Positions 58,664 to 60,893 of a stretch of DNA of 64,000 bases are shown here, piece by piece. Every line of letters starts with the position of its first letter. Position 1 is the stretch's first letter. Made by a program: the position numbers and the translations under genes. The stretch comes from Bifidobacterium pseudolongum subsp. globosum. Lineage in GTDB: Bacteria > Actinomycetota > Actinomycetes > Actinomycetales > Bifidobacteriaceae. The notes under the pieces are model-generated. The model ran no database searches, was not told the DNA's origin, and saw nothing but the letters and a program-made list of their open reading frames with translations. Where the stretch lies: assembly GCF_004155535.1 (NCBI RefSeq), contig NZ_RYUH01000017.1:1-64000 (forward strand), written 5' to 3'.

Positions 58664-59209
58664 TCAGTCCTCGACGACATACTCCTCGTCGTCCTCGAAT
58701 TCGTCGTCGTCCACGGCCTCGTGCTTGAGGTAGACGGTCACGTAGCGCTTCGGCTCCTCGCCGTGCGAACGCGAGCGCAGGCCCTCGTCGCGCACCACAT
58801 CGTGGATGATCTTGCGCTCGAACGAGTTCATCGGCTTCAGGTCCACCGGTTCACCGGTCTCGCGCACATCGTCGACCGCGTCGAGCGCCATGTCGCGCAG
58901 GATCTGGCGGCGGCGCTTCAAAAAGCCGTCCACATCCACGATCAGGTGCGAGCGTTCGCCGGTCTGCTGCTGCACCGCCAGGCGGCACAGCTGCTGGAGC
59001 GCGTCGACCACTTCGCCATTGCGCCCGATCAGGTGCTTGATGTCGGTGTCGTCGTCGGCCACGATCTGCACCATCGGGCGGTTGTTGCGCACGCCCATCT
59101 CGATGTCGCCTTCGTAATCGGCCACGTCGAGCAGTCCCTCGAGGTAGTCTGCGGCGATGTCCGCCTCTTCATTGAGCTGTTCGATCGTCTTTTCGTCGTC
59201 CTGCACCAT
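58664..59209 (-). CDS. khpB: KH/R3H RNA-binding protein Jag (KhpB)
   Basis: A 181-residue RNA-binding protein usually encoded beside yidC, with roles in cell division and elongation in Gram-positives. It has a KH domain (DTDIKHLIGRNGEVVDALQQLCRLAVQQ, GRNG loop) and an R3H domain (about 115-165, PMNSFERKIIHDVVRDEG). The tail is acidic. The Jag-N domain found in firmicutes is absent. ATG 59209 follows AAGGAG at 6 nt. Here it is separated from yidC by a 679-bp gap that holds a tandem repeat array. Confidence 0.92.
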   Translation of the reverse strand: MVQDDEKTIEQLNEEADIAADYLEGLLDVADYEGDIEMGVRNNRPMVQIVADDDTDIKHLIGRNGEVVDALQQLCRLAVQQQTGERSHLIVDVDGFLKRRRQILRDMALDAVDDVRETGEPVDLKPMNSFERKIIHDVVRDEGLRSRSHGEEPKRYVTVYLKHEAVDDDEFEDDEEYVVED

Positions 59210-59322
59210 AACTGCTCCTTCGTTCATAGCCCGGACATGGGGTCTTTAGGCGCGCCCGGGCCGATGTGCGCGGGCGCCCGTACTTACACAGGTCGTTCCA
59301 AGTGTAAAACAACGGTATGGAA

Positions 59323-59348
59323 CAACACGCACCGGCATCAAAATATCC
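59323..59348. repeat. Outlying copy of the repeat-array end sequence
   Basis: The 26-mer starting CAACACGCACCGGCATCA matches 59807-59832 (the last array unit plus the start of the yidC terminator) at 23 of 26 positions. It therefore flanks the 52-nt array on the other side in direct orientation. Confidence 0.7.
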
Positions 59349-59489
59349 GGCATATGGGGCGCGACGTGGTGGTTGCGCTGCGGGTGTGCCGTTGCGGCAG
59401 AGATCGCGCCGAGGAGCTCCCCCACCCTCCCGTCTATAGCCTCGTTACGCGGAATTCGCATCAACCACATGGGACACGCATGCACGGAA

Positions 59490-59832
59490 GTCATGCAATA
59501 CGCACCGGCGGATGACAAAACTCTAGGCAGTACCGAGGAAAGTCATGCAGCAAGCACCGCCGGATGACGAACGTCAGAATGGTACTGACAAAAGTCATAT
59601 CCAAGGCCCCTAGGCATGACAACCGTCTGCGACCCCACGCGGCAGCAATGCGGGATGTTGCCGAGTATGACCAACCTCTGCACCTCTTCGAGGATAGTCA
59701 TGCGATACGCACTGTCGAATGAGAAACCTCTAAGCAGTACCGAGGAAAATCATGCAGCAAGCACTGCCGGATGACGAACGTCAGGATGGCACTGGTGGAA
59801 GTCATGCAACACGCACCGGTATTAGAATATCC
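59490..59832. repeat. Tandem array of about seven 52-nt units
   Basis: Unit starts (GTCATGCA or close) fall at 59490, 59542, 59594, about 59646 (degenerate), 59697, 59749 and 59801, a nearly strict 52-nt period. Units share GTCATGCA, ACGCACC, GGATGAC and, in alternate units, GCAGTACCGAGGAA. Units 1-2 resemble units 5-6 more than their neighbours, so a 207-nt block seems to have been duplicated. 52 is not a multiple of three and no frame stays open, so it is non-coding. The rest of the gap (59210-59489) shows no gene. Its role is unknown. Confidence 0.85.
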
Positions 59833-59866
59833 CCGCGCCCATCGGGTGACGGGCGCGGGGATATTC
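59825..59866 (-). terminator. Terminator of the yidC operon
   Basis: Exact 16-bp arms GAATATCCCCGCGCCC (59825-59840) and the complement (59851-59866), loop of 10 nt, 22 bp beyond the yidC stop. Confidence 0.88.
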
Positions 59867-59888
59867 GTGGATTCGCAGCGGACGGCGC

Positions 59889-60893
59889 TTACTTCTTGCG
59901 GCGGTTCTTGCGCTGCGGCTGCTGGCGCTGATGGCCCTGCGAGGCCTTGCGCTCGGCCTCCTGCTTGGCCTCGATGAGCTTCTCCTCCTCGATCGACGGC
60001 AGGCCCTTGGCGGCGCGGCGCTTGTTCTCGTTGTCGTGGTCGCGCTTCTCCTTGTCCTCGGCGGCCGGCGAGCCCGGGGTCGGGAACTCGTGCAGCTGCC
60101 AGAACGAACGCAGCAGGTTGCAGATGTTGTTGGCGAGCCAGTAGACGAGCACGGCGAACGGCATGGCCACACCGGAGAAGATGTACATGACCGGGAACAC
60201 CCACAGCATCATCTTCTGCATGCGTTCGGTCTGCTTGTTCATCGAGGCGGGCGCGGTGTTGCGGCGCATCGTGTTCCACTGCATGTACCACAGGCACGCA
60301 CACATGGCGAACACGAAGATGCCAATGACGATCTTGCCGCTTGTGCCGGCCGTGGTGAACGTGTCGGAGACCTTGGTGCCGAAGAACGTGGTCGAGGAGA
60401 ACTCCTGCGCGGTGGCCACGTCAAAGGCGCCCAGTGGCGCACGCTTGCCGCGGGCGATGTACGGAATGGCCGAAAGCACGTAGAACATGCACATGAAGAC
60501 CGGGCCCTGGATGAGCATCGGAAGGCACGACCCCGCCGGATTGGCGTTGTTGTCCTTGTAGAGCTTCATCATCTCGCGCTGCATCGCCTCTTTGCTCGCG
60601 GGATCGTTCTTGCCCTTGTACTTGTTCTGGATCTTCATCATCTTCGGCTGGATCGCCTGCATGCCGCGCATCGACTTCATCTGCTTGTAGAACAGCGGGA
60701 AGACGCAGGCCTGCACCACAATCACGAGGAAGATGATCGAGAGCACCCAGGAAAGGCCCACGGCCGGCATGCCGATGAGCGTGAGCAGTTTGTGGAACCA
60801 GTACATGACCTGCGTCATGAGCCACTCCACCGGGGTCAGCAGCTTGTACAGCCACCCCCAGAATCCGCTATCCAAAAGAAAATTATCCGACAT
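59889..60893 (-). CDS. yidC: Membrane protein insertase YidC/Oxa1
   Basis: Inserts and folds membrane proteins, alone or with Sec. The 334-residue protein has an N-terminal span, then the 60KD_IMP domain. This includes IIFLVIVVQACVFPLFYKQMKSMRGMQAIQPKMMKIQNKYK with the conserved charged cytoplasmic loop, and further spans to about residue 240. The C-terminal tail is Lys/Arg/Gln-rich (QRQQPQRKNRRKK), which helps ribosome binding. It lies 10 bp downstream of yidD on the same strand. Confidence 0.95.
   Translation of the reverse strand: MSDNFLLDSGFWGWLYKLLTPVEWLMTQVMYWFHKLLTLIGMPAVGLSWVLSIIFLVIVVQACVFPLFYKQMKSMRGMQAIQPKMMKIQNKYKGKNDPASKEAMQREMMKLYKDNNANPAGSCLPMLIQGPVFMCMFYVLSAIPYIARGKRAPLGAFDVATAQEFSSTTFFGTKVSDTFTTAGTSGKIVIGIFVFAMCACLWYMQWNTMRRNTAPASMNKQTERMQKMMLWVFPVMYIFSGVAMPFAVLVYWLANNICNLLRSFWQLHEFPTPGSPAAEDKEKRDHDNENKRRAAKGLPSIEEEKLIEAKQEAERKASQGHQRQQPQRKNRRKK

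Follow-up and report, generated by a model that had tools for sequence, protein, structure and literature searches.

Tandem 52-bp dyad repeats between khpB and yidC in Bifidobacterium pseudolongum belong to a dispersed and apparently lineage-specific repeat family

A regular array of 52-bp repeats lies close to dnaA in the genome of Bifidobacterium pseudolongum subsp. globosum, and its position raises the question of whether it serves the origin or a neighbouring gene, or is one member of something more widely distributed. The window analysed here is a stretch of 64,000 nucleotides (contig NZ_RYUH01000017.1, positions 1 to 64,000), in which the array occupies positions 59481-59832 and comprises six full units and a truncated one. 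The full units, each a 45-bp dyad on the minus strand, lie at 59481-59525, 59533-59577, 59585-59629, 59636-59680, 59688-59732 and 59740-59784, with spacings of 52, 52, 51, 52 and 52 bp, while the seventh (59792-59832, minus strand) lacks one arm. The third unit gives the best match to other loci in this genome and its relatives, the fourth is the most degenerate, and the fifth and sixth are copies of the first and second, displaced by 207 bp. Self-alignment of the array gives identity peaks of 0.76 (displacement 207), 0.52 (52) and 0.50 (155), whereas 200 shuffles never exceeded 0.40. The original prediction, of seven units at a 52-nt period, thus holds for the period and needs correcting on the count; the 207-nt block duplication that it proposed is confirmed by 86% identity over 110 bp between the units at 59481/59533 and those at 59688/59740, and its view of the array as non-coding is borne out by ORF calls, which put essentially all arrays of this type between genes. 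Excessive divergence among the units presumably explains why Tandem Repeats Finder did not detect the khpB-yidC array. Elsewhere in the window, a 46-bp tandem repeat of 2.3 copies occurs at 34-137.

The gap that holds the array is bounded by khpB (jag; 58664-59227, minus strand), in an order conserved among relatives, and by yidC (59889-60893, minus strand), which was used to locate the site in other species. Two 26-bp direct repeats, at 59323-59348 and 59807-59832, are 88% identical and begin 484 bp apart; the truncated seventh unit runs into the second of these. The first had been taken for a stray copy of the end of the array, a repeat that does exist but is better described as one flank of a 484-bp insertion. 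Two type strains, B. pseudolongum subsp. globosum LMG 11569 and subsp. pseudolongum DSM 20099, share these genes and the hairpin downstream of yidC but have no array, in keeping with the expectation that the gap would be short in relatives, and their clean empty site (L099/L214) has a single 26-bp sequence where the window has two. The alignment of window positions 59228-59348 with G075 and G007 (93%) ends at the direct repeat. Outside the array, the inserted DNA includes 132 bp (59349-59480) with no other match in its own genome or four relatives; GC content is 57% in the insertion and 53% in the array, compared with 65% in the window. The hairpin (59825-59866, minus strand; inverted repeat of 19 nt, 95%) resembles an intrinsic terminator, occurs also in the array-free relatives, and appears from this comparison to predate the insertion. 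The absence of the array from the two type strains could reflect deletion between 26-bp repeats in those strains rather than insertion here, but the array is missing from this site in more distant species as well, and a recent insertion between direct repeats is for that reason more likely than loss. Since close relatives offer both the empty and the filled state of the site, the mechanism of insertion is directly testable.

The array is not unique. Comparison of its DNA with its own genome (G000) revealed five further loci, and a covariance model trained on 26 units gave 83 matches at about 24 loci. In all, 75 dyad units were found in some 24 intergenic arrays of one to six units each, with a unit spacing throughout the genome of 52 bp (51-53). 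Several arrays adjoin tRNA genes (Glu, Ser, Gly, Ala), mostly on the 3' side, and two come after sequence judged by eye to be 5S-rRNA-like; the orientation of units relative to neighbouring genes and their transcription is mixed. Several arrays are close to the ends of contigs C3, C4, C5, C6, C20 and C21, at distances of some hundreds of bases up to a few kb, so that the repeats probably broke the assembly and the copy number given for this genome is a lower bound. At L084:200-350, L076:3090-3260 and L080:2470-2620, many copies of a short palindrome, GCACTACCCGTAGC / GCTACGGGTAGTGC, accompany the 52-bp arrays.

The consensus of the 75 units, CAGA[C/G]G-N3-GTCATG-N15-CATGAC-N3-C[G/C]TCTG, describes a 45-bp imperfect inverted repeat followed by 7 variable bp. 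The GTCAT/ATGAC boxes and the outer GA/TC are mostly conserved at about 90% or above, the centre and linker are not, and a few units are near-perfect palindromes. Arms are of two types: CAGACG-AAA-GTCATG (55 arms, in which C goes with A) and CAGAGG-TTT-GTCATG (40 arms, G with T). A unit often contains one arm of each type, read inward, so that its two non-pairing triplets read alike on one strand (columns 8 and 38 are A/A or T/T in 39 of 66 units). The inner loop of GTCAT-N17-ATGAC was exactly 17 in all 37 exact cases, and palindromic GAC-N4-GTC cores alternate at distances of 31 bp (57 times) and 21 bp (37 times), a regularity to be read with the caveat that units were gathered with a fixed-length pattern, their neighbourhoods being rescanned without it. 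These distances approximate three and two helical turns, and the full period about five. Neighbouring units share only 60% of their positions overall (45% at variable columns), so that spacing has been kept far better than sequence; this strictness in the face of divergence is the strongest hint of constraint in the family.

A second family, here called type B to distinguish it from the type A units described above, has the unrelated dyad sequence TATCTGTCYGAAAAAnCG...CCGTTTTTTCGGACAGATA and adjoins type A at several loci. Its period is 52 bp in every case but one (53), and it is present in G000, G075, G007 and G027 only. Type B tracts (TGTCYGAAAAA...TTTTTTCGGACA) abut type A at L085:3012-3111, L086:96-247, L079:2896-3000 and L074:2838-2989, often near tRNA genes. 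That two unrelated sequences (A: GTCAT/ATGAC; B: CTGTC/GACAG) should have one period in common is the main unexplained observation of this study.

Among 189 Bifidobacteriaceae genomes, tandem matches to type A numbered 35 in G000, 8 in G075, 3 in G007 and 2 in G074. The remaining matches were isolated, with two mismatches, and look like chance; many are the same sequence recurring within one other genus. The 77 genomes from 15 other Bifidobacteriaceae genera yielded no true array, and the covariance model finds one unit in G027. The search suggested at the outset across Bifidobacterium genomes thus places related arrays in no more than a few close relatives, those of the B. pseudolongum group. 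Within it, as had been anticipated, unit number differs between close relatives: L070:2767-2973 has four units in G000 and G075 and two in G007, where 102 bp are lost, L084:5353-5663 has about six units versus one, and L077 five versus one or two. Because of these differences between close relatives, use of the arrays in strain typing is plausible, and if they vary between strains they would provide ready markers. A different history is suggested by the array at L070:5608-5763, which with its flanks (L070:5349-6023) is about 97% identical by alignment in the more distant G074; other matches in that genome reach 73-91%, and the excess suggests recent, horizontal transfer of this stretch. In orthologous arrays, changes stood at 9/210 for conserved and 18/315 for variable columns (P 0.55), so that present-day purifying selection was not detected in a small test of low power.

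Could the maintained feature be a structured RNA, a small RNA or 3' untranslated region produced when transcription reads through from an upstream gene, as had been envisaged for yidC? Many of the arrays are situated 3' of genes for tRNA, rRNA or protein, and the minus strand of the khpB-yidC array folds more favourably than shuffled versions (z -7.2). However, the plus strand does so as well (z -6.2), as dyad-rich DNA would, and both folded stretches take in the flanking hairpin. The array sits behind this strong hairpin as seen from yidC, units are in mixed orientation relative to neighbouring genes, and Rfam has no match for the array. The proposed covariation test on aligned units, moreover, disclosed no compensatory changes: covariation was absent or negative (columns 8/38, z -4.2; 9/37, z -2.5; 5/41, z -2.1), inner column pairs from 15/31 to 20/26 were paired in 23-40% of units with none clearly above shuffles, and after removal of near-duplicates the arms paired at 9.05 of 15 positions versus 9.62 when arms were re-dealt, none of 2000 shuffles being as low. 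It follows that an RNA hairpin or cruciform is not generally what is maintained; an RNA function is unlikely, and the read-through model in particular very improbable, while a function at the level of DNA is possible. A guide-RNA array with box C motifs was also considered and set aside, RTGATGA occurring in only 1 of 66 dyads. The position beside dnaA had invited a link to the origin or DnaA, which is rejected: no TTATNCACA-type DnaA boxes occur at 59323-59870, and the repeat is present at some 24 other places, so that its location appears incidental. A cluster of four TTATCCACA-type DnaA boxes and one TTTTCCACA within 140 bp does occur at L077:2381-2522 (G000:C17); this contig is not the one carrying dnaA, and a 52-bp array lies about 150 bp away. 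A functional array might instead bind some other protein, cooperatively, on GAC-N4-GTC palindromes placed two and three turns apart along one DNA face, and thereby shape the nucleoid or insulate neighbouring transcription units. Core spacings of 21 and 31 bp kept despite 40% divergence of adjacent units, conserved arms around variable loops, and the identical period of type B all accord with this proposal; against it, arrays come and go, and change in copy number, freely among close relatives, the type strains do without the array between khpB and yidC, conserved columns are no slower in substitution in the low-power test noted above, and no binder is known. We regard it as a doubtful reading but one worth entertaining. 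If helical spacing does reflect a bound protein, the arrays would point to a new DNA-organising factor. Its extension to both families, as scaffolds for a single protein system gauging DNA length in helical turns (a nucleoid factor, or a transposase-less mode of spreading that makes units of fixed length), is more speculative and rather improbable.

Mobilisation by a dedicated enzyme is a separate proposition. Spread as REP/REPIN elements by a RAYT (IS200/IS605-like) transposase is suggested by short, dispersed extragenic palindromes, often downstream of genes, and by CGTC, varied to TGTC or CCTC, at the end of the right arm (columns 40-43: C72 G62 T94 C97; C30 at column 41, T22 at column 40), a feature shared with the CGTC REPs described in PMC3733652. 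Nevertheless, the units have neither a GTAG tag nor a stem of 8-9 bp with a loop of 4-5 nt, and Y1_Tnp was found in none of five genomes (G000, G007, G075, G027, G074) in a search whose control was positive. A resident RAYT is thereby refuted; a past or external one is possible, and the explanation as a whole has very little to recommend it. Even harder to credit are attC-like or res-like sites for a site-specific recombinase. Arms of two boxes separated by 3 nt that mostly do not pair, around a centre that varies, would be in character, and the TGTCYGA that begins the type B arms resembles resolvase half-sites, a likeness that serves as a lead only. On the other side, serine recombinase was absent from G000 and G074, no cassettes lie between units, and linkers of 7 bp are too short to hold them. 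Searches for Y1_Tnp and serine recombinase thus identified no mobilising enzyme for the family. A phage or viral origin was likewise discarded, viral contigs having no exact match to a dimer.

Taken together, we put at roughly 70% the probability that what lies between khpB and yidC is a single member of a largely neutral, REP/MIRU-like family of interspersed tandem palindromic repeats specific to this lineage. Blocks of several units would be copied into dispensable intergenic gaps, which may often be those that follow terminators or the 3' ends of tRNA or rRNA genes; the arrays would afterwards grow or shrink by recombination between units, and interspersed minisatellites of this kind would be largely neutral in behaviour. 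As for the helical spacing and the dyad arms, the copying machinery may recognise them, or they may be a pattern of DNA-protein contacts. Spacing this strict at such divergence exceeds what neutral minisatellites predict, so that the arrays may serve, or may once have served, some function.

The searchable literature contains no account of such repeats in bifidobacteria. Among known systems, CRISPR arrays are also regular series of short repeats with variable parts, but units here are palindromic, diverged (adjacent ones about 60% identical) and spread over some 24 loci; near-identical repeats with unique spacers do not occur, the Rfam CRISPR-DR match is sub-threshold (16.8 bits against 35), and on these grounds a CRISPR identity is not supported. 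With CGTC REPs (Di Nocera 2013, PMC3733652; including Neisseria dRS3) the family has in common short extragenic palindromes, a terminal CGTC, TGTC or CCTC at one end with AT beside the tag, frequent heterotypic dimers and the lack of a known dedicated transposase. It differs in having no stem of 8-9 bp with a 4-5 nt loop beside the tag, in a flank of mostly TG plus 7 variable bases where those elements have a CCA-like unpaired tail, and in strict head-to-tail arrays rather than head-to-head dimers; the main text of that paper names no Actinobacteria or bifidobacteria. Imperfect, heterotypic palindromes have been suggested to escape SbcCD cleavage (PMC3733652), an escape that would fit the imperfect dyads described here. 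REPIN/BIME elements (PMC3116915, PMC2817692) are likewise lineage-specific intergenic palindromic repeats in composite arrays, but the 52-bp family lacks a RAYT, numbers tens rather than hundreds of copies, and has CAGA[C/G]G NNN GTCATG as its arm in place of the GTAG/GGAG tag at the hairpin foot of REPINs and GTAG REPs. The MIRU of Mycobacterium tuberculosis (PMC3635867) are also actinobacterial; they too are tandem repeats, roughly 50 bp long and variable in copy number, at dispersed sites, and their description as dispersed intergenic arrays of 40-100 bp units applies here (24 arrays, 52 bp). MIRU copy number is polymorphic within a species, and here unit number differs between close relatives; the likeness is one of description, and the 52-bp unit differs in being a dyad, its copies diverged and its phasing strict. 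The family appears to be an undescribed, lineage-specific one for which membership in neither REP/BIME nor MIRU is claimed, and which resembles both in behaviour.
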